A DNA stretch of 64,000 bases, from the NCBI GenBank assembly GCA_025362495.1, contig JANYGI010000080.1:1-64000 (forward strand), given 5' to 3'. A program made the translations under genes and the position numbers. This document shows, piece by piece, positions 9,093 through 24,285 of this stretch. Within the stretch, counting starts at the first letter, position 1, and every line of letters starts with the position of its first letter. A model generated the notes under the pieces. That model was not told where the DNA came from. It did not search any database and worked only from the letters and a program-made list of their open reading frames with translations. The DNA comes from Byssovorax sp. GTDB lineage: Bacteria; Myxococcota_A; Polyangia; Polyangiales; Polyangiaceae.

Positions 9093-12000
9093 ATGTCGAT
9101 CCACGTAGCGATTCACCACGTCACGACCTACCGCTACGACCGCCCCGTCGCGCTCGGCCCGCAAGTGGTCCGTCTCCGCCCCGCGCCGCACTGCCGCTCG
9201 CGCATCCTCGGCTACTCGCTCCAGGTCCTGCCCGCGAAGCACTTCATCAACTGGCAGCAGGATCCCGAGGCCAACTACCTCGCGCGCCTCGTCTTCCCGG
9301 ACCTCACCACCGAGCTGCGGATCGAGGTCGACGTCATCGCCGAGATGGCCGTCATCAACCCCTTCGATTTCTTCCTCGAGCCCCACGCCGAGGCCTTCCC
9401 GTTCGAGTACGAAGACGCCCTCCAGGTCGAGCTCGCGCCGTACCGCGCGACCCTCGCGAGCACGCCGCTCCTCGACGCCCTCGTCGCCACGATCCCGCGC
9501 GATCCCCGGCCCACCAACGATTTTCTCGTCGAGCTCAACCAGCGCCTCTCGCAGCACATCCGCTACGTGATCCGCCTCGAGCCCGGCCTCCAGACGCCGG
9601 AAGAGACGCTCGAAAAAGGCTCGGGATCGTGCCGCGACACGGCCTGGCTGCTGACGCAGATCCTCCGCCGCATCGGCCTCGCGGCGCGCTTCGTCTCCGG
9701 CTACCTCGTGCAGCTCACGGCGGACACAAAGCCGCTCGACGACGGCCCCGCCGGGCCCTCCGCCGACTTCACCGATCTCCACGCGTGGTGCGAGGTCTAC
9801 CTCCCGGGCGCGGGCTGGATCGGCCTCGATCCGACGTCGGGCCTCTTCGCGGGCGAGGGCCATTTGCCGCTCGCGTGCACGCCCGAGCCGTCGTCGGCGG
9901 CGCCGGTGAGCGGCCTGCTCGGCGAGTGCGAGACGACGTTCGAGCACGAGATGACGGTGACGCGCGTGTGGGAAGCCCCGCGCGTCACCAGGCCGTACAC
10001 CGACGCGCAGTGGGCCGAGATCGAGGCCCTCGGCCACGCCGTCGACGCCGAGATGCGCGCCGGCGACGTGCGCCTGTCCATGGGCGGCGAGCCGACGTTC
10101 ATCTCCATCGACGATCCCGACGGCGAAGAGTGGAACACCGCGGCGCTCGGGCCCGACAAGAAGCGCCTCGCGACGAACCTCTTTCACCGCATGCGGGACG
10201 AGTACGCGCCCCGCGGCCTCGTTCACTTCGGCCAGGGCAAGTGGTACCCGGGCGAGCCGCTGCCGCGCTGGGCCCTCAACTGCTTCTGGCGCCGCGACGG
10301 CGAGCCGATGTGGAGCGACGCTGGGCTGCTCGCCGACGAGTCCAAGCCGAGCGGCGCCGACGAGGCCGTCGCGGGCCGCTTCCTCCGCGGCGTGGCCGAG
10401 CGTCTCGGCCTCGATCCCGAGCGTGTTTTCGCGGCCTACGAGGACTCCTTCTACTACCTCTGGCGCGAGCAGAAGCTGCCGGTGAACGTCGATCCGCGGA
10501 CGTCGCGCCTCGACGATCCGCTCGAGCGCGCGCGCCTCCGTCGCCTCTTCTCGACCGGCCTCGAAAAGGTCACCGGGCACGTGCTCCCGATCGCGCGCCG
10601 CGCCTCGGGCTTTCGCTCTGGCCCGTGGCACCTGCGCGACGAGCGCTGCTACCTCATCCCCGGCGACTCGCCGCTCGGGCTGCGCCTCCCGCTCGCGTCG
10701 CAGCCGTGGCTCGCCGAGGACGATCGCCTCCCGTTCTTCCCGCCCGATCAGGGCCAGGTCTTCCCGCCGCTCCCGACCCACGCCGAGCTGCGCAACCAGT
10801 ACGCGCCGTCGCCCGACAGCAGCGTCGCGCTCCTTGAAATCAAGGCAAAACCGAGCGATCCGGTGGCCGAGGATCGTGTCCCCGCCGAAGGCGAATCGGC
10901 GACGTGGATCAACCGCTCCGCGCTGTGCGCCGAGCCGCGCGACGGCGTGCTCTACGTCTTCATGCCGCCGATCGAGGCCCTCGACGACTACCTCGCGCTC
11001 GTGGCCGCGATCGAAGCGACGGCCGCGGAGGTCGGCCACCCGGTGATGCTCGAAGGGTACGAGCCGCCGCGCGATCCGCGCGTACAGAAGCTCAGCGTCA
11101 CGCCCGATCCCGGCGTGATCGAGGTCAACATCCACCCCGCGGCGGGCTGGGACGAGCTCGTCGCGCACACCACGCACCTCTACGAGGCCGCGCGACTCTC
11201 GCGCCTGGCCGGCGAAAAATTCATGCTCGACGGCCGCCACACCGGCACCGGCGGCGGCAACCACGTCGTCCTCGGCGGCGCGACGGTGAACGATTCACCC
11301 TTCCTTCGCCGGCCGGATCTGCTGCGCAGCCTCGTCTCTTCCTTTCACCAGCACCCCTCGCTCTCGTTCCTGTTCTCGGGCCTCTTCATCGGCCCGACGT
11401 CGCAGGCGCCACGCCTCGACGAGGCCCGCCACGACGCCCTCTTCGAGATCGAGCTCGCCTTCCGGGAGCTCACGCGCCTCACCGGCATTCACGGCGAGAC
11501 GCCGCCGCCGTGGCTGGTCGATCGCCTCTTCCGCGATCTCCTCGTCGACGTCACCGGCAACACCCATCGCACCGAGTTCTGCATCGACAAGCTCTTCTCG
11601 CCCGACGGCACCACGGGGCGGCTCGGGCTGCTCGAGATGCGCGCCTTCGAGATGCCGCCGCACGCGCGGATGAGCCTCACCCAGCAGCTCTTGCTCCGCG
11701 CCCTCGTCGCGCGCTTCTGGAAGACGCCGTTCGCGCCGACGCGCCTCGCCCGCTGGGGCACGGAGCTCCACGATCGCTTCATGCTGCCGCACTTCGTCTG
11801 GCAGGATTTCGAGGACGTGCTGACCGAGCTCGGCGAGGCCGGCTACCCGCTGCGCGCCGCGTGGTTCGCCCCGCACTTCGAGTTTCGCTTCCCCAAGCAC
11901 GGCGATTTCGCCGCGCGCGGCGCCGAGATCGAGATCCGGAGCGCCCTCGAGCCCTGGCACGTGATGGGCGAGGAGGCGGCCGCGGGCGGCACCGCGCGCT

Positions 12001-12428
12001 ACGTCGACTCGTCGCTCGAACGCCTGCAGATCAAGGTCACGGGCCTCGCGCCGGATCGCTATGTCGTGACCTGCAACGGTGTCGCGATACCGCTCACGCC
12101 CACCGGCCGCGCGGCCGAGCTCGTCGCCGGCGTGCGCTACCGCGCGTGGCAGCCGCCCCGCTGCCTCCACCCGCACATCGGCGTCCACGCGCCGCTGACG
12201 TTCGACCTCGTCGACACGTGGATGAGCCGCAGCCTCGGAGGGTGCCAGTACCACGTGACCCACCCGGGCGGTCGCCACGAAGAGGGCCTCCCCGTCAACG
12301 CGTTCGAGGCCGAAGGGCGCCGCCTCGCCCGTTTCTTCCGGCTCGGCCACACCCCGGGGCGGATTGATGTCGTCCCCGCCACACCGAACGTCGATTTCCC
12401 GTTCACCCTCGATCTGCGCCGCCAGTGA
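9093..12428 (+). CDS. Transglutaminase-like + DUF2126 protein
   Basis: N-terminal bacterial transglutaminase-like half (HHVTTYRYDRPVALGPQVVRLRP; GSGSCRDTAWLLTQILRRIGLAARFVSGYL; DLHAWCEVYLPGAGWIGLDPT) followed by DUF2126 (SMGGEPTFISIDDPDGEEWN; GQGKWYPGEPLPRW). Confidence 0.9.
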   Translation: MSIHVAIHHVTTYRYDRPVALGPQVVRLRPAPHCRSRILGYSLQVLPAKHFINWQQDPEANYLARLVFPDLTTELRIEVDVIAEMAVINPFDFFLEPHAEAFPFEYEDALQVELAPYRATLASTPLLDALVATIPRDPRPTNDFLVELNQRLSQHIRYVIRLEPGLQTPEETLEKGSGSCRDTAWLLTQILRRIGLAARFVSGYLVQLTADTKPLDDGPAGPSADFTDLHAWCEVYLPGAGWIGLDPTSGLFAGEGHLPLACTPEPSSAAPVSGLLGECETTFEHEMTVTRVWEAPRVTRPYTDAQWAEIEALGHAVDAEMRAGDVRLSMGGEPTFISIDDPDGEEWNTAALGPDKKRLATNLFHRMRDEYAPRGLVHFGQGKWYPGEPLPRWALNCFWRRDGEPMWSDAGLLADESKPSGADEAVAGRFLRGVAERLGLDPERVFAAYEDSFYYLWREQKLPVNVDPRTSRLDDPLERARLRRLFSTGLEKVTGHVLPIARRASGFRSGPWHLRDERCYLIPGDSPLGLRLPLASQPWLAEDDRLPFFPPDQGQVFPPLPTHAELRNQYAPSPDSSVALLEIKAKPSDPVAEDRVPAEGESATWINRSALCAEPRDGVLYVFMPPIEALDDYLALVAAIEATAAEVGHPVMLEGYEPPRDPRVQKLSVTPDPGVIEVNIHPAAGWDELVAHTTHLYEAARLSRLAGEKFMLDGRHTGTGGGNHVVLGGATVNDSPFLRRPDLLRSLVSSFHQHPSLSFLFSGLFIGPTSQAPRLDEARHDALFEIELAFRELTRLTGIHGETPPPWLVDRLFRDLLVDVTGNTHRTEFCIDKLFSPDGTTGRLGLLEMRAFEMPPHARMSLTQQLLLRALVARFWKTPFAPTRLARWGTELHDRFMLPHFVWQDFEDVLTELGEAGYPLRAAWFAPHFEFRFPKHGDFAARGAEIEIRSALEPWHVMGEEAAAGGTARYVDSSLERLQIKVTGLAPDRYVVTCNGVAIPLTPTGRAAELVAGVRYRAWQPPRCLHPHIGVHAPLTFDLVDTWMSRSLGGCQYHVTHPGGRHEEGLPVNAFEAEGRRLARFFRLGHTPGRIDVVPATPNVDFPFTLDLRRQ

Positions 12429-12442
12429 GAAGACATGCGACC

Positions 12443-12464
12443 TCGAGGGCAGCGCTGCCCTCGA
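12443..12464. promoter_or_regulatory. 22-bp perfect palindrome TCGAGGGCAGCGCTGCCCTCGA (operator or terminator stem)
   Basis: Read directly; lies 14 bp after the DUF2126 stop and upstream of the PAS gene; no T-tract follows. Confidence 0.5.
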
Positions 12465-12520
12465 TTCCGGTGCCGTAAGCCGGCTTGACGACGGCATGGT
12501 GTGTCCCAGGTTCACCGGCG

Positions 12521-13129
12521 ATGAACCCCGATTTTCCCGTGTTCCCAGCAGCGCTCGAGGCCGAGCCGTGGCCGGCGTGCGTGCTCGACATGAACGGCAG
12601 GATCGTTGGCGTCAACGGTGCCTGGGACCGGATCGCCCGCGCGTCGAACGGGCCTCTCGGCATCGAGGTCGTGGGCACGCGCTGGAGTGCTCACATCACG
12701 GGCGCAGAGCTCCGCGCCTGGTACGAGACCTTGCTCCATCGGGTCCTCGACCGCGGCGCCGGCGAGAGCCTCAGGTGCGATTGCAATACGCCCGAGCGCT
12801 ATCGCCTCTTCAGCTCGCGCTTCGAGCCGCTGCGGAGGCGGCCGTCGAGCGAGACGGTCGGCGTGCTCGTCCTGACGAGCTTGATCGAAGAGGCGCCCAT
12901 CGGAGAGCGTTACCCGCTCGGGACGCCCGACGAGCTCCGTTATCGGTGCGCGGACGGCCTGGTCCGTCAGTGCAGCGGCTGCCGGCGCGTCCGCGTCGCG
13001 GGGCCGCCGCCGGCCGTGTGGGAGCTCGTTCCGGAGTACGTGGCGACTCCGCGTCAGGACGTGTCTCACGGGATCTGCAGGCTCTGTCGCGAGATCTACT
13101 ACGGGATGCTCCCGAAGGAGGAGCCATGA
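12521..13129 (+). CDS. PAS-like sensor protein with C-terminal CxxC...CxxC motif
   Basis: WPACVLDMNGRIVGVNGAWDRIAR (PAS-like); C-terminal QCSGCRRVRVAG...WELVPEYV...SHGICRLCREIYYG resembles the CAWCKKIRD...THGICPDC module. Start moved to ATG 12521. Confidence 0.7.
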   Translation: MNPDFPVFPAALEAEPWPACVLDMNGRIVGVNGAWDRIARASNGPLGIEVVGTRWSAHITGAELRAWYETLLHRVLDRGAGESLRCDCNTPERYRLFSSRFEPLRRRPSSETVGVLVLTSLIEEAPIGERYPLGTPDELRYRCADGLVRQCSGCRRVRVAGPPPAVWELVPEYVATPRQDVSHGICRLCREIYYGMLPKEEP

Positions 13130-13557
13130 TACCCGACGAGCCACGGTCGCCTCACCCAGGATCGCCGTCGAACAGCGATGGTCCGGTCTCGTCCGATTAC
13201 GATGTTCTGGTGGTCGAGGACGATCAGGACTGCCGAGAAGTCCTCTGCTCGCTGCTCTCTCTGGAGGGCTATCGCGTGCAGGGAGCGGCGTCGGGCGCGG
13301 AGGCGCTCGACGTGCTCGCGAAGATGGATGAGCCGCCTCGCCTCGTCTTCCTCGACCTGGTCATGCCGGGGATGAGCGGGTTCGATTTCCTCTCCGAGAT
13401 GCGCCGAGATCCGACCCTCACCGAGATCCCGGTGGTGATGCACTCCGGGATGAGCGAGCAGCCCTATTTCGGTACGCGGCCCGGCGTGGCGCACTGGCTG
13501 CAGAAGCCCGCGAGGCTCGACGATCTGCTGGCGATCACCCGGCAACTGACGCCGTGA
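13126..13557 (+). CDS. Response regulator receiver protein
   Basis: DVLVVEDDQDCREVLCSLL...VFLDLVMPGMSGFDFL...HWLQKPARLDDLL; ATGA overlap with the preceding gene. Confidence 0.85.
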   Translation: MIPDEPRSPHPGSPSNSDGPVSSDYDVLVVEDDQDCREVLCSLLSLEGYRVQGAASGAEALDVLAKMDEPPRLVFLDLVMPGMSGFDFLSEMRRDPTLTEIPVVMHSGMSEQPYFGTRPGVAHWLQKPARLDDLLAITRQLTP

Positions 13558-13812
13558 GCCGGCCCGGATCGACCAGGGGCGCTGCCCGCCGAGACGAGCC
13601 GCGAGCGCGTCCGCGTCGTGCGCGCGTCGATCGAGGCCGACGGCGTCACCTGGCGGCCGCCACGCCGGAACTGGCGGCGCCACCCCTTCGCGTGAACTCT
13701 CTTCGATGATCTCGGGCGCAGGATCCTGGCATCGGAGGTGCTCAGGGCAGCGCGGCTGGCCTTGCGCAAGGCGGGAGTAGGTCTCCCGTCGGCGCTGGCC
13801 TCGCCTTCTCCG

Positions 13813-14709
13813 ATGCATAATCCGTTCGACCAGCTCGCCAAGAAGATCGGCAAGGAAGCTCTGAACGCCTGCGGTCATACCGTCGTTCAGTACGAGATCT
13901 CCCGGGACGCTCAGCACGCTGACATTCCCCACGATCCCGACCGGGCCCGCGATCGAGAGCGCGCTCGCCTCGGCCTGCTCGGACGGCTCGCGGCGGCGCT
14001 TTGCCTGATCGAGATCTACGGGCATGCGCCGAGCGGCGCGGAGATCCGGGCCTGTCTCAGCAGGCACTTTGCGCACTGGGAGGAGTGCGAACGCAGGGCG
14101 CGCGCGCAGAACAGAAGGCGCACGCAGAAGGGCCTACCCCTTTTGCCGCTCATCGAGCCTCGACTCTGGATCATCGCCGCCACGGCCTCGACACCGATGT
14201 TGCGCAAGCTCAAGGTCGAAGCGGCGCCTGGCTGGCCGGTCGGCGTCTATTTTCACGGGGACGAGCTCTACCGCGTGGGCCTCATCGTCGTGAACGAGCT
14301 GCCGCGTGACCGCTCGACGCTCCACGTCCGCATCATGGCGGCGGGTCCAGTGCTTCCCGGCGCGCTCGCGGATCTCGCGGCGCTGCCGGAGGACACCCAC
14401 GAGCGCGCCGTGGCCGAGCAAATCTTGGTACACTTGCAGCACGTGATCGGGAAGAAGCCGGGCCGGACCCCGGAAGAAGAGGAGTTCATCGTGAGCATGC
14501 AGGGCACGTGGAAGGAGGCGCGGGAGCAGGGGCGCACCGAGGAAGCGGCGCGAGCCGTGCTCACGGTGCTGCGCGTTCGCGGGATCGCCGTGCCGGAATC
14601 CGCGCGGGAGCGCATCCTGGCCGAGACGGATCCGGCGCGGCTCGAGCGCTGGCACGAGCGGGCCATCGTCGCGGCTTCCGTCGCCGAGGCGATCGACGAG
14701 CCGAGCTGA
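13813..14709 (+). CDS. Putative PD-(D/E)XK/Rpn-like nuclease family protein
   Basis: MHNPFDQLAKKIGKEALNACGHTVVQYEISRDAQHADIPHDPD...RLWIIAATASTPMLRKLKVEAAPGWPVGVYF...AVAEQILVHLQHVIGKKP; C-terminal helical region similar in pattern to the Rpn/DUF4351-like protein at 52402. Start moved to ATG 13813. Confidence 0.55.
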   Translation: MHNPFDQLAKKIGKEALNACGHTVVQYEISRDAQHADIPHDPDRARDRERARLGLLGRLAAALCLIEIYGHAPSGAEIRACLSRHFAHWEECERRARAQNRRRTQKGLPLLPLIEPRLWIIAATASTPMLRKLKVEAAPGWPVGVYFHGDELYRVGLIVVNELPRDRSTLHVRIMAAGPVLPGALADLAALPEDTHERAVAEQILVHLQHVIGKKPGRTPEEEEFIVSMQGTWKEAREQGRTEEAARAVLTVLRVRGIAVPESARERILAETDPARLERWHERAIVAASVAEAIDEPS

Positions 14710-14866
14710 ACCGAGCTGAGCTGCTTTTCGTGAGCGAGCCGCCCGCCCGGGCGCGGGACATGGCCGGACGCGAGCGGATGGGGAAGAGGCGAGAGATCGC
14801 CGCCTACTTCTTCACCCGCGATGCCCCTCGATATGCGCCGCCACCAAGAGTAAAACGCGGCCTCCG

Positions 14867-17479
14867 ATGCCCGAGAACCTCCTCTCGCCGTACCCGCGCG
14901 TGGCCTCCCGCTACGACGAGATGCTCGACGGGCGCGGCGCGCCGCGGGCCCATTTTCGCCCGTTCCTCTCGCAGATCGCGGCGCTCCCGGCCGAGACGAT
15001 CCGCGAGCGCGCCCGCTTCGTCCGCGAGTCGATCGAGTCCGACGGCGTCACGTACAACGTCTACGCGGATCCCAAGGGCGCGAGCCGCCCGTGGGAGCTC
15101 GATCTGCTCCCGCTCATTCTCCCCGCCGACGAGTGGCAGCACATCTCCGCGGCCGTCGCGCAGCGCGCGCGGCTGCTCAACGCGCTCCTCGGCGATCTCT
15201 ACGGCGAGCAGGATCTGCTCGCTCGCGGCCTGATCCCGCCCGCCGTCGTCTTCGGTCAGCGCGGCTTCCTCTGGCCCGCGCACGGCGTCGTCCCGCCCGA
15301 GAACGTGGCGCTCCACATCTACGCGGTCGATCTCGCGCGCTCGCCCGACGGCCGCTGGTGGGTCCTCGCCGATCGCACGCGCGGCCCGTCCGGCGCCGGC
15401 TACGCGCTCCAGAACCGGATGACGCTCTCGCGGGCCTTCCCCGACGCCTTCCGCGAGCTCCCCGTCCAGCAGCTCGCGCCGTTCTTCTCCGCGCTGCAAG
15501 ACTCGCTCTACCGCCTCTCGCTGACGCGCGCGGGCGAGGCGCCGCTGGTCGTGCTCCTCACGCCCGGGCCCTACAACGAGACGTATTTCGAGCACTCGTT
15601 CCTCGCGCGCTACCTCGGCTTCCCGCTCGTGGAAGGGCAAGATCTCCTGGTGCGCGGCGACGCCGTTCACCTGAAGACGCTGCGCGGGCTGCGCCGCGTG
15701 CACGCGATCCTCCGCCGCCTCGACGACGACTACTGCGATCCGGTCGAGCTCCGCGCCGACTCCGCGCTCGGCGTGCCGGGCCTCCTCCACGCGGTGCGCG
15801 CGGGCAACGTGCTGCTCGCCAACGCGCTCGGGAGCGGCGTGCTCGAGACGGGCGCGCTCGCCGGCTTCCTCCCCGCCGTGAGCGAGCAGCTCTTCGGCGA
15901 GAAGCTTCTCATGCCGTCGATCGCCACCTGGTGGTGCGGCGAAGCGCCGGCGCTCGAGTACGTGATCAAGCACCTCGACGAGCTGGTCATCAAGCCGACG
16001 TACCCGTCGATCCGGCGCGAGCCCGTCTTCGGCCACACCCTCGACGCCGCGGCCCGCGCGCGCCTCATCGATCGCATGCGCGCGCAGCCGCACGCCTACG
16101 TCGCGCAAGAGTGGGTGCGCCTCTCGCACGCGCCGACGTTCGGCCGCGGGCGCGACGGTCGCCTCCTCTCGCGCGCGGTGAGCCTGCGCGTGTTCGCGGT
16201 GGCGACGAAGGACGGCTACACGGTGATGCCCGGCGCGCTCACCCGCGTGGCGCCGGAAGACGGCGACGTCGTCTCGATGCAGTGGGGCGGCTCGAGCAAG
16301 GACACCTGGATGCTCGCCGAGGGGCAAGCCCCGCAGATCGCGCGCAGCCGCCCCCGCCTCGGCCTCGCCGACGTCGAGCAGAGCGGCGTCGAGATCGCCT
16401 CGCGCGTGGGCGAGAACCTCTTCTGGATGGGCCGCTACGCCGAGCGCTGCGAAGGCATCGCCCGCCTCCTCCGCGCCGCGCTGGTGCGCCTCGCCGACTC
16501 CGCGCCCGAGGCCGCCGCGGCGCTCGGATCGATCGCCGCGGTGTGCGAGGGGCTCGGCGTCCTCGAGGTCCCCGAGGCGCCTGACGACGAGGCCCCGAGC
16601 AGCGCGCCCTGGGGCGCCGCCGCGCCCGCCTCTTCGGCGTCACCCGCGCCTGCCTCGGAACCGCGAGCCGCGAGAAAAGCACCGGAAAACAGGCTCGATT
16701 TCGACGAGGCCGCGCCGCCGCCGGACTTCCTGGCCGCGGTCGCCGATCCCGCCGCGATGGGCGGCCTCGCGGCCAACGTGCTGCGCCTGCACGGGTGCGC
16801 GAGCCACGTGCGCGAGCGCATGTCGACCGACAACTGGCACGTGTTCAACCGCCTCACGCAGCGCCTCCCCGGGCCCCACCCGACCATGGGCAAGGCGCTC
16901 GAGTCGCTCGACGAGATCATGCTGGCGTGCGTCTCGCTCGCGGGCTTCGCGATGGACGACATGACCCGCGACGAGAGCTGGCGCTTCCTCCTGCTCGGCC
17001 GCCGCCTGGAGCGCCTGGCCCACCTCGCGGGCGTCGTCTCGCGCGTGCTCGGCTTCGCCCCCGCCGCGCGCGAAGAGGCCCTGGAGTGGCTGCTCGAGGC
17101 CGCCAACAGCATCGTCACGTTCCGCGCTCGCTACCGCCGCGCGCCCGAGCTCTTGCCGGTGCTCCACCTCGTCGTGTTCGACCAGACCAACCCGCACGCG
17201 ATCGGCTTCCAGCTCCGCGAGCTGCCCGAGGATCTCGAGCGCACCGCGGCCGAGCTCGGCGGCGCGGTGATGGGCGCGGCGCTCGGCCCGCTCGGGAAGG
17301 CGCTGCGCGGCATGTCGCTCGCGGGCTTCGAGCCCGAGGGCGGCCCCGCGCTCGAGGCCGCGTGCCTCGATCTCGCGCGGCTCCTCGACGGCGCGCGCGC
17401 CGCAGCGTTCGGCCTCTCCGACGAGCTGCAGCGCCGCTTCTTCACCCACGCGGGCACCCCTGCCCCGCTCGGCGTCTGA
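14867..17479 (+). CDS. Circularly permuted ATP-grasp protein fused to alpha-E (DUF403) domain
   Basis: RYDEMLDGRGAPRAHFRPF, GVTYNVYADPKG, PGPYNETYFEHSFLARYLGFPLVEGQDL, PTYPSIRREPVFG; C-terminal VGENLFWMGRYAERCEGIARLLRA (alpha-E). Confidence 0.9.
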   Translation: MPENLLSPYPRVASRYDEMLDGRGAPRAHFRPFLSQIAALPAETIRERARFVRESIESDGVTYNVYADPKGASRPWELDLLPLILPADEWQHISAAVAQRARLLNALLGDLYGEQDLLARGLIPPAVVFGQRGFLWPAHGVVPPENVALHIYAVDLARSPDGRWWVLADRTRGPSGAGYALQNRMTLSRAFPDAFRELPVQQLAPFFSALQDSLYRLSLTRAGEAPLVVLLTPGPYNETYFEHSFLARYLGFPLVEGQDLLVRGDAVHLKTLRGLRRVHAILRRLDDDYCDPVELRADSALGVPGLLHAVRAGNVLLANALGSGVLETGALAGFLPAVSEQLFGEKLLMPSIATWWCGEAPALEYVIKHLDELVIKPTYPSIRREPVFGHTLDAAARARLIDRMRAQPHAYVAQEWVRLSHAPTFGRGRDGRLLSRAVSLRVFAVATKDGYTVMPGALTRVAPEDGDVVSMQWGGSSKDTWMLAEGQAPQIARSRPRLGLADVEQSGVEIASRVGENLFWMGRYAERCEGIARLLRAALVRLADSAPEAAAALGSIAAVCEGLGVLEVPEAPDDEAPSSAPWGAAAPASSASPAPASEPRAARKAPENRLDFDEAAPPPDFLAAVADPAAMGGLAANVLRLHGCASHVRERMSTDNWHVFNRLTQRLPGPHPTMGKALESLDEIMLACVSLAGFAMDDMTRDESWRFLLLGRRLERLAHLAGVVSRVLGFAPAAREEALEWLLEAANSIVTFRARYRRAPELLPVLHLVVFDQTNPHAIGFQLRELPEDLERTAAELGGAVMGAALGPLGKALRGMSLAGFEPEGGPALEAACLDLARLLDGARAAAFGLSDELQRRFFTHAGTPAPLGV

Positions 17480-17484
17480 AGGAG

Positions 17485-18453
17485 ATGACGCCGATGAAGG
17501 CCGCCCGCTATCACGTCGCGCACGAGACGCGGTACGAGTACCACCAGCCGGTCGGGCTCTCGCGCCAGGTCGTCCGCCTCGCGCCGCGCGTCGTCCCCTG
17601 GCAGGTGTGCCGCGCGCACGCGCTCACGATCCAGCCCGACGCCGTGATCCTCTCGGTGCGCTCCGACGCGTTCGGCAACCCCGTCACCTCGTTCGCGATC
17701 GAGGCCGATCACGCCGCGCTCCGCGTGCGGGCCGAGTCGTGGATCGACGTCGCCGCGCGCGCGTTCCCGGACGACGCGGCGACGCCTCCCTGGGAGAAGG
17801 TCCGCGCCCGCCTCGCCTACCACGGCGGAGCGCGTCCCTTGCCCGCCGACCTCGACGCCGCGCGCTTCCTCTTCGAGTCGACCCGCGTGCGCAACAAGCG
17901 CGAGCTCGCGACCTGGGCGCTCGCCTCGTTCCCGCCGGGCGTCCCGCTCCTCGTCGGCGTCCGCGCGCTGATGAACCGCATCCACCGGGAGTTCACCTTC
18001 GATCCCGAGGCCACCGACGTCTCGACGCCCGTCATGGAGGTGTTCACGCGGCGCCGCGGTGTCTGCCAGGACTTCGCGCACCTGATGCTCTCGTGCCTGC
18101 GCTCGATCGGCCTCGCCGCCCGCTACGTCAGCGGCTACCTGCTCACGCGCCCTCCGCCGGGCCGCCCGCGCTTGATTGGCGCCGACGCCTCGCACGCCTG
18201 GGTGTCCGTCTATTGCCCCGATCAGGGCTGGGTCGACACCGATCCGACCAACGCGATCTTCCCGGGCAAAGAGCACGTGACGCTCGGCTGGGGGCGCGAC
18301 TACGACGACGTGATCCCGCTCCGCGGCGTGCTCCTCGGCGGCGGCGATCACGAGATCTCGATCGAGGTCACTGTGACGCCGGCGGCGGACTACGAGGCCC
18401 TGTTCAAGCAGCCTTTGCCGGAGCTGCCGCCCCTCGACGCTCCCGCGCGCTGA
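17485..18453 (+). CDS. Transglutaminase family protein
   Basis: ARYHVAHETRYEYHQPVGLSRQVVRLAPR; RRGVCQDFAHLMLSCLRSIGLAARYVSGYLLT; ASHAWVSVYCPDQGWVDTDPTN (Cys-His-Asp triad context). Confidence 0.92.
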   Translation: MTPMKAARYHVAHETRYEYHQPVGLSRQVVRLAPRVVPWQVCRAHALTIQPDAVILSVRSDAFGNPVTSFAIEADHAALRVRAESWIDVAARAFPDDAATPPWEKVRARLAYHGGARPLPADLDAARFLFESTRVRNKRELATWALASFPPGVPLLVGVRALMNRIHREFTFDPEATDVSTPVMEVFTRRRGVCQDFAHLMLSCLRSIGLAARYVSGYLLTRPPPGRPRLIGADASHAWVSVYCPDQGWVDTDPTNAIFPGKEHVTLGWGRDYDDVIPLRGVLLGGGDHEISIEVTVTPAADYEALFKQPLPELPPLDAPAR

Positions 18454-21492: not shown

Positions 21493-24165
21493 TCACTGCA
21501 AGAAGCCTTGCTTGAGCGCCTCCATCAGCGGGTCTCGCTGGCCGGCCGTCTGACCGGGCCGGTAACCCTGGTTGATGGTCCAGACGATGGTGCCGCCGAG
21601 CCCCTTCTGCTTGACGTAGGCGCCCTTCTCGAGGATCGACTGGGGATCTTCGTAGGACACGAACGTGCACCCCTGCGGCCCGTGCGAGGACGAGAAGCCG
21701 AGGTAAGGAACCCTCGCGGTCGCGTCCCAGTGGTGGCTGGTGGAGCTGTAGTACGAATTCATGATGTTATCGAACGTCATCGTGTTGTCGTCGGAGACGA
21801 TCTGCGAGCCGTTGAGGCTCTGCTTCGGCTGCGAGACGGGCGAAGACCAGCACGAGCCGTAGAAGGCGATACCGATACCGAGCTTGGACGCGGGCACGCC
21901 GGCGGCGAGGTAGGCCTTGACGTTGAGGTCGACCGAGCTCGGCGTCGCCGACGCCTCGCCGTAGAGGGCCGCCGAGTGCCAGCTCTGCCAGCCGCCCCAG
22001 CCGCCCGACATGCTGTAGCTCATCAGGTTGATCTGATCGAAGAGCGGCGCGATGCCGCCGAAGAACGAGCTGACGCTGGCGTTCATCGTCACCCACTGCA
22101 CAGGCACGGTGAGCAGCGTCGACGGCATGGCCGCGCGGATCGCCTGCGCGAGCGCCTTGAAGGCCGGTTGATCGCCCGCCGGGAGCGGCTCCCAGTCGAG
22201 GTCGAACCCGTCGAACCCGTAGTCCTGGGCGAGCTGCTTCAGGTTCTGCACGAACGCCGCGCGGTTCTGAGACGAGGCCGCGCCCACCCACCCCGACTCG
22301 GCCCCTGCGCCGCCCAGCATCACCACGGCCTTCTTGCCGTTCTGATGGGCGAGCTGCACCAGGTTCTTCGCGAAGGCCGGGCCGCCCGTGCCCATGTCGA
22401 ACGTGGTGTTGAGCGTGCCATTGGAGTTCGGCACCACCCGCCCGACGAAGATGTGCGTGAGCCCGCCCCAGTCGATGGCGCTGGGCGGATACAGGTTCTG
22501 CTGGTAGCCGACGTAATAGCCGCTGACCCACTTGCCGCTCGTGCTCCCGCCGCCCGCGCCGCCGGACCCACCGGCCCCGCCGGAGCCCGTCGCCCCGCCC
22601 GAGCCGGTGCTCGCGCCGCCGGCGCCCGTCGTGCTGCCCGAGCCGCTGCCCGTGCCGGTCCCGTCACAGGTCACCACGACGTTGTCAATCAGGAGATTCC
22701 GATCCTGCCCGTTGGCGTAATAGTCGTTGTCGAACACCACCTTGATCTGGTGGGAGCCCGCGGTCGCCGCGAACGGGAACGAGAACGTGGACCAGTTGCC
22801 CGAGGAGACCGTCGCTTGACCGACCTTCACGCCATCCACCGTGACGATCATGTCCGGCCACACGTTGCTGGCGGCCTGCCCCTTGGCAGACACGGTGAGG
22901 TGGGTCGCGCCGGCGACGAACGTGTGGTTCGTCGCGATGTAGCCATTCGACCACAGGTTCCAGCCGCCGGTCGTGCTCCCGCCGGTCGAGTGCGTCATCG
23001 TCTCTGCTTCGTAGGTCGTGGCCGCGCACGCCGTGCCGGCGCTGGCGGTGCCACCACCGCTGACCACGCCGCCGCCGCCTCCCCACGCGAGGTGGGGTAA
23101 CATCATCGTCATCCGCACCTCGTCCGGTCCGCCCGTCGGCTCGAGGCTGCCTCCGCCCGACCACGGCCCGGCGGCCGAGAACGTCCAGCCGAGCCAGACA
23201 TCGCTGTTCGCCTCCAGGTGCGCCAGCATGTCGTCGAGGGCCGCGACGCACGTGGCGCTCGATCCGCCCGAGAACTCGCCCAGGAACCCCCTCTTCCCGC
23301 TGGCCTTGAGCCAGCTCGTGAACGCGGCGAGGCGCTGCGATCCGACGGTGGTGCCGGCGCAAGTCTGGCTCTTGCCCGAGGAGTCGTCGTCGAGGTACTG
23401 ATGAACCTCGTAGGCGTAGTTGTTGCCGGGATCCTCGATCTGGAGCATCGCCTTCGCGTTCGCTGTACCATACCAGCTCTCGCTCCACGCCTGAGCGCCG
23501 TCCCACCCGTTGCCCGGGACCAGGATCAGGTTGGTGGCGCCGGTGGCCCGGATGGCGGCGATGGCCGCGTTCGCCGCGCCCACCCACTGCTCCGTCGACA
23601 TGTCATGAGGCTCGTTCATGACGGCGAACACCACCTTCGGGTTGTTCTTGTAAATGGACGCGAGGCGCCCCCAGAAGTCGGCGAAGTCGGCGGCCGGGAC
23701 AGCGCCCGATCCGATCACCTTGGTGCCGTAGCGCCCGTAGTTGTGCGGATCGAGGATCACCGACGTTCCCCTGGCGAGCAGGCCGTCGGTCGTGGTGGTC
23801 AGGCGGTCGAGCTCCTCCGCATCGAACGCCGCGTTCCGGGTCGGCTGCAGGCGCTCCCAGCGGAACGGGAGCCGGAACGTCGTCATGCCCTTGCTCACGA
23901 AGTAGTCCGCCGAGTCGTAGCCAGCCACGTAGTGCGGGTCGGGGTAGACGTAGTCCGCGCCGTGCTTGCCCGGGAGGGGTCCGTTCCCCGAAGGATCGAT
24001 GGCCAGCTCCACGCTGGCGAGGCTCACGCCGCGATAAGGCAGCGCGCCGGACAGCGACGCTCCCTGCAAGGCGGGCGCGTCGGCGGCGTCCTCGGGCAGC
24101 GGGCCTCCGCAGGCGAGCAGCGAAATGGCGGGCAACACGCCCCAGATCATGCACGATTTCTTCAT
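21493..24165 (-). CDS. Secreted lipoprotein: GH5 cellulase-like - CBM - Gly/Ser linker - GH18 chitinase-like
   Basis: Signal MKKSCMIWGVLPAISLLAC (lipobox); GH5 FAVMNEPHDM and GFLGEFSGG; CBM-like YEAETMTHSTGGSTTGGWN...LLIDNVVV; linker GSGGAGGSGGAGGGSTSG; GH18 YGFDGFDLDWEP. Confidence 0.85.
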   Translation of the reverse strand: MKKSCMIWGVLPAISLLACGGPLPEDAADAPALQGASLSGALPYRGVSLASVELAIDPSGNGPLPGKHGADYVYPDPHYVAGYDSADYFVSKGMTTFRLPFRWERLQPTRNAAFDAEELDRLTTTTDGLLARGTSVILDPHNYGRYGTKVIGSGAVPAADFADFWGRLASIYKNNPKVVFAVMNEPHDMSTEQWVGAANAAIAAIRATGATNLILVPGNGWDGAQAWSESWYGTANAKAMLQIEDPGNNYAYEVHQYLDDDSSGKSQTCAGTTVGSQRLAAFTSWLKASGKRGFLGEFSGGSSATCVAALDDMLAHLEANSDVWLGWTFSAAGPWSGGGSLEPTGGPDEVRMTMMLPHLAWGGGGGVVSGGGTASAGTACAATTYEAETMTHSTGGSTTGGWNLWSNGYIATNHTFVAGATHLTVSAKGQAASNVWPDMIVTVDGVKVGQATVSSGNWSTFSFPFAATAGSHQIKVVFDNDYYANGQDRNLLIDNVVVTCDGTGTGSGSGSTTGAGGASTGSGGATGSGGAGGSGGAGGGSTSGKWVSGYYVGYQQNLYPPSAIDWGGLTHIFVGRVVPNSNGTLNTTFDMGTGGPAFAKNLVQLAHQNGKKAVVMLGGAGAESGWVGAASSQNRAAFVQNLKQLAQDYGFDGFDLDWEPLPAGDQPAFKALAQAIRAAMPSTLLTVPVQWVTMNASVSSFFGGIAPLFDQINLMSYSMSGGWGGWQSWHSAALYGEASATPSSVDLNVKAYLAAGVPASKLGIGIAFYGSCWSSPVSQPKQSLNGSQIVSDDNTMTFDNIMNSYYSSTSHHWDATARVPYLGFSSSHGPQGCTFVSYEDPQSILEKGAYVKQKGLGGTIVWTINQGYRPGQTAGQRDPLMEALKQGFLQ

Positions 24166-24285
24166 GATGCGATGCTTTCTTCCTCCCCCGGTGACGTTTC
24201 GGTTTGCTTCGCGCACGCGTGCATCCACGCGCCGCTCTCGCGGCCTCGGGTGCGCAGTACAGAGCAGGTTGCCTTGGAGCAGCAC

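Follow-up and report, generated by a model that had tools for sequence, protein, structure and literature searches.

The 64,000-nucleotide stretch of Byssovorax sp. analysed here (assembly GCA_025362495.1, contig JANYGI010000080.1; hereafter the window) carries on its forward strand a three-gene module of transglutaminase-like, ATP-grasp and alpha-E proteins. The first gene (9093..12428, + strand, 1111 amino acids) encodes a transglutaminase-like domain together with DUF2126, a predicted amidoligase, and matches the Pfam families Bact_transglu_N (PF08379), Transglut_core (PF01841) and DUF2126 (PF09899, 1308 bits). The second gene (14867..17479, +) encodes, in a single frame of 870 amino acids, a circularly permuted ATP-grasp fused to alpha-E (CP_ATPgrasp_2, PF14403, 514 bits; PF04174; Alpha-E, PF04168, 194 bits). 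It remains adjacent to the third gene (17485..18453, +, 322 amino acids), which encodes a stand-alone transglutaminase-like protein (PF08379, PF01841). These matches are strong and bear out a first-pass annotation of this DNA that had named the three genes and the fusion of ATP-grasp and alpha-E in one polypeptide; moreover, the frame-specific GC content agrees with the called frames of all three.

In the product of the first gene Cys180, His230 and Asp246 are invariant across all 86 loci aligned, and in the stand-alone transglutaminase-like protein Cys194 and His237 are found in 98 of 98 loci and Asp253 in 93 of 98. The fusion protein shares N183, E242, R283/R284, K376 and K478-D479 with its relatives, and the ER motif of alpha-E (E715-R716) is likewise conserved. 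A relative in the PDB is 3n6x (E 1.5e-88); for the alpha-E part, an AF2 model (pLDDT 80) gave no significant PDB match. As the expected catalytic residues are present and kept in relatives, the module looks functional.

Relatives of the fusion protein are encoded in at least 585 loci found by a scan of GTDB genomes, spread over many phyla, i.e. the fusion, although singled out in the first-pass annotation, is the standard form. The best 80 of these loci, for which the taxonomy was described, belong to Beta-, Gamma- and Alphaproteobacteria, Acidobacteria, Planctomycetes and one Labilithrix, and most of them have the same gene order, DUF2126, fusion, transglutaminase, which also recurs with short gaps in genomes of the same family as Byssovorax. 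Loci of Azoarcus, Pseudomonas, Azospirillum and Labilithrix have the same three genes, order and fusion, with fusion proteins that are 41-68% identical. Thus, judged by gene content and order, the module is known and ordinary, its ATP-grasp/alpha-E fusion is widespread, and the ancestral unit was most likely a single contiguous gene string. Second DUF2126-type genes adjoin the normal one in five genomes (G020:C20, G036:C1, G033:C141, G053:C4 and G047:C6).

In the window this string is interrupted. The gap between the DUF2126 and fusion genes measures 2,442 bp and holds three open reading frames (ORFs) within 2.4 kb, all on the strand of the module, and no PAS, receiver or third gene lies between the first two genes in the Azoarcus, Pseudomonas, Azospirillum and Labilithrix loci, unlike in the window. 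Among the 94 loci in which both genes could be placed, the gap is at most 300 bp in 83, 300-1000 bp in 5 and more than 1 kb in 6, with a median of about 84 bp; since these six are interrupted too, contiguity is typical of the module rather than defining. The six long gaps contain genes unrelated to the window insert, namely, by names assigned by eye from the sequences and without Pfam, a cytochrome-c-like protein (three Azospirillum), a ParA-like gene, TPR/CHAT-like genes and a two-component set. The latter lies in a genome of the same family (G024; L073:452-3688, G024:C272), in which the junction holds another insertion, made up of a secreted-protein-like ORF and, on the opposite strand, a receiver and PAS-type histidine kinase; the DUF2126 match of that locus contains a TAA and is divided between two frames. 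From this comparison the window insert appears as one of few independent insertions at the DUF2126/fusion junction. The first-pass annotation had allowed for an insertion and had named a strain-specific insertion without co-expression as the outcome that would refute its proposal; as far as synteny is concerned, a lineage-specific insertion is indeed what is seen.

The junction includes two pieces that went unmentioned in the first-pass annotation. Codons 39-62 of the ATP-grasp gene occur a second time at 13578..13649 (+, ALPAETSRERVRVVRASIEADGVTW); in a self-comparison this copy aligns with 14980-15051 at 88.9% identity over 72 bp (E 2e-22). At 14825..14843 (+), immediately 5' of the intact fusion gene and at the position where the DUF2126 tail sits in relatives, lies a remnant of the DUF2126 3' end, the right copy of the junction, which matches the left copy at the end of the DUF2126 gene (12406..12428, +) in 18 of 19 bases; under stricter scoring this match scores 33, while none of 446 other windows or 500 shuffles scored above 27. 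The two remnants stand in the order expected of a duplicated junction, and the insert therefore sits inside that duplication, as a rearrangement scar would. Self-comparison also revealed a perfect 22-nt palindrome (12443..12464, no strand assigned, core CGAGGGCAGCGCTGCCCTCG) about 15 nt past the DUF2126 stop codon, which has no T-run and is not among the terminator-like sites of a consensus scan. Within the insert, the scan for promoter and terminator consensus sequences detected no promoter; its two terminator-like hits, both in the third ORF, are weak and near the level of chance.

Based on these findings, it is highly probable that an intact, known module had its junction duplicated and that the 2.4 kb composite between the copies is a genomic scar that plays no regulatory part in the module. 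By comparison with the other loci, the insert is a lineage-specific rearrangement without evidence of a regulatory role. Several points weigh against this explanation. The remnant of the DUF2126 tail, at 19 bp, is short, and its score under softer scoring is unremarkable, being attained by 1 of 500 shuffles and by several other windows. The comparison set contains no genome of the same genus by which the insertion could be dated, and the insert genes lie on the strand of the module, i.e. they may be expressed by read-through. As for the module itself, we know of none of this kind with a known substrate or product, and Anbu, a member of the related operons discussed below, showed no peptidase activity when assayed (PMC6376114).

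In a variant of the scar explanation with another order of events, recombination with a diverged relative would have brought in the intact fusion-transglutaminase pair; the 72-bp remnant would be what is left of the native fusion gene, and the insert would be passenger DNA. The junction copies differ by 11%, which is above the expectation for a very recent duplication and would fit such an exchange. However, the remnant is 89% identical to the intact gene of its own genome and only about 75% to relatives, i.e. each copy has its nearest match in the other and not in any compared genome, and an old duplication in place accounts for this similarity equally well. Hence we regard acquisition from outside as unlikely.

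The third inserted ORF (13813..14709, +, 298 amino acids) is the one that had been called 'nuclease-like' from a resemblance and not from a detected domain. Its product has no Pfam match at E 10, no NCBIfam match at E 1 and no PADLOC match, and although its AF2 model is confident (pLDDT 86), the best PDB fold match is no better than E 0.34; since none of these searches gave anything significant, we did not adopt nuclease as the identity of this gene. The ORF is part of a dispersed unit of leader and gene (13643..14744, +) with copies on two other contigs of the same genome (C109, 82% identical; C38, 76%), and homology to this unit begins within a few bases of the end of the ATP-grasp remnant. 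The protein belongs to a paralogue family with at least four close members in its own genome and more distant ones elsewhere. Its leader (13643-13812) is conserved, with homologues in L074 and L075, and contains repeated TGGCGGC-GCC motifs, which are possibly an operator. The C-terminal tail (approximately residues 235-298) is common to many proteins, one of which is of the YhgA/Rpn type (PF04754). From the lack of a family or fold match and from this tail, we assign the protein to an unnamed dispersed family with a possible Rpn-type link, whereas the label 'nuclease-like' is weakly supported. That the gene encodes an active Rpn/PD-(D/E)XK-type nuclease which entered the module by its own mobility would agree with the shared tail, with the multiple copies that carry a conserved leader and with the invariant residues D37, at the start of a predicted strand, and E67, within one. 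Nevertheless, no lysine is found two residues past E67 and the searches described above detected no nuclease domain, making a self-mobilising nuclease an improbable origin of the insert.

The remaining two ORFs of the insert were correctly described in the first-pass annotation as a PAS protein and a receiver. The PAS-domain protein (12521..13129, +, 202 amino acids; PAS_4, PF08448, E 3e-5), for which the start was picked by eye as the mechanically called ORF starts with TTG at 12485, ends in a Cys-rich tail (CSGC...CRLC), and its gene overlaps by 4 nt with that of a stand-alone receiver domain (13126..13557, +, 143 amino acids; PF00072, E 4e-20). Of 184 genomes from the order, 14, Byssovorax itself included, encode relatives of the PAS protein. 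In two of them, G124 and G125, a receiver also directly follows the PAS gene (pairs L212/L222 and L219/L221), and no module gene is found near the pair, i.e. on the 8.5 kb contig of G124 and within approximately 9.5 kb on each side in G125. The PAS and receiver genes thus make up a unit of two genes that occurs independently of the module.

That the composite uncouples the DUF2126 gene from the ATP-grasp-alpha-E-transglutaminase pair, which would then be driven by a new promoter or controlled by PAS-receiver, seems to us very unlikely; if true, it would amount to the evolutionary rewiring of what is normally a single transcript. Still less credible is a captured local regulator, in which PAS would sense a signal and the orphan receiver would control the amidoligase/transglutaminase module, as the first-pass annotation had hinted: the location of the pair between module genes, on their strand and with overlapping frames, the unrelated receiver and PAS-type kinase at the G024 junction and the control of a Burkholderia cluster by NtrC, a two-component regulator (PMC5491218), speak for it, but the pair is absent from the junction in 94 of 94 comparison loci and in G124 and G125 is found without the module nearby, the window receiver lacks an output domain, the G024 genes differ from those of the window and lie on the opposite strand, and other insertions at this junction are devoid of signalling genes. 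Because the pair is found elsewhere and the junction lacks it in the comparison loci, we rejected local regulation as the principal explanation.

Returning to the scar explanation, we infer the order of events and the mechanism of the junction rearrangement as follows: the junction of the DUF2126 and fusion genes would have been duplicated in this lineage, and the PAS-receiver pair and a copy of the dispersed gene family, the latter moved together with its leader, which make up the 2.4 kb composite, would have come between the junction copies. Beyond demonstrating that the string of genes can be interrupted at one of its junctions, the insert is of minor import.

For the module itself the most probable biochemical scheme, the building and trimming of small peptides, may be proposed from its protein families. 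ATP-grasp enzymes form amide bonds via an acyl-phosphate, transglutaminase-like domains work with a Cys-His-Asp triad, and the annotation of DUF2126 is that of a putative amidoligase. By analogy, the ATP-grasp enzyme would activate a carboxylate as acyl-phosphate and then make an amide bond, by which a peptide or isopeptide tag would be built or lengthened, with alpha-E as its helical partner or as a substrate-binding domain. DUF2126 may serve as a second amide ligase, and the two transglutaminase-like domains may hydrolyse or transfer the bonds made. The ATP-grasp protein of the Yersinia Anbu operon releases phosphate from ATP (PMC6376114), and published hypotheses range from protein tagging to a system for peptide synthesis and turnover (PMC5666114, PMC6376114, PMC3597751).

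The association of these families was reportedly defined by Iyer et al. 2009. In Mycobacterium, Rv2566-Rv2567 presumably represent a transglutaminase-DUF2126 protein adjoining an ATP-grasp-alpha-E fusion; Rv2567 is listed as an 'alanine and leucine rich protein' (PMC2978697). The Anbu operon consists of ATP-grasp, alpha-E, transglutaminase and Anbu (PMC5666114, PMC6376114). It resembles the window module in having the ATP-grasp, alpha-E and transglutaminase families in a single gene string, but the module lacks Anbu, contains DUF2126 and has ATP-grasp and alpha-E fused. As Anbu (PF00227) has no match in the whole genome, which is about 97% complete, it was ruled out as a missing partner of the module. 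A second, paralogous locus on another contig of the genome (C152, L027:10387-14675) comprises ATP-grasp, alpha-E and then a GATase_4-transglutaminase fusion. GATase_4 is a class-II glutamine amidotransferase of the Ntn-hydrolase family, i.e. in this genome without Anbu an Ntn-type domain occupies the place that Anbu, also an Ntn hydrolase, holds in Anbu operons. Elsewhere in the window, a single ORF at 21493-24285 (- strand) combines a GH5 cellulase, CBM60 and a GH18 domain.

The module is widespread and has no assigned substrate, and its regulation in other bacteria may offer an approach. Burkholderia cenocepacia I35_5080-5083 encode DUF404/407 (ATP-grasp), DUF403 (alpha-E), a transglutaminase-like protein and a large transglutaminase-like protein, and this cluster depends on NtrC/sigma-54 (PMC5491218). 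Its families are the same as those of the window module, but ATP-grasp and alpha-E are separate genes. In a count made after reading that report and without an independent test set, about 21 of 82 loci have sigma-54-like sites (at least 9 of 11 matches) at a distance of 45-80 nt ahead of DUF2126. By record name, nearly all carriers are Beta- or Gammaproteobacteria, joined by one Telmatospirillum metagenome-assembled genome (MAG) and one MAG labelled Pedobacter; examples are L133, L145, L163 and L206 (Zoogloeaceae, Dechloromonas, Pseudomonas and Azoarcus). The 84 regions upstream of the fusion gene contain a single such site, 209 nt away. Sites before DUF2126 and nearly none before the fusion gene fit a single transcript that starts at DUF2126, and the pattern is consistent with the module being one nitrogen-controlled transcript in other proteobacteria. 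In contrast to the nitrogen control reported for Burkholderia, neither DUF2126 nor the fusion gene of the window has an upstream sigma-54-like site: the best candidates reach 8 of 11 and do not exceed shuffles, 20% of which equal the one upstream of DUF2126. Taken together, the gene order across phyla, the sigma-54-like sites and the NtrC regulon (PMC5491218) point to nitrogen-starved Pseudomonas or Azoarcus as the place to search for the product of the module.

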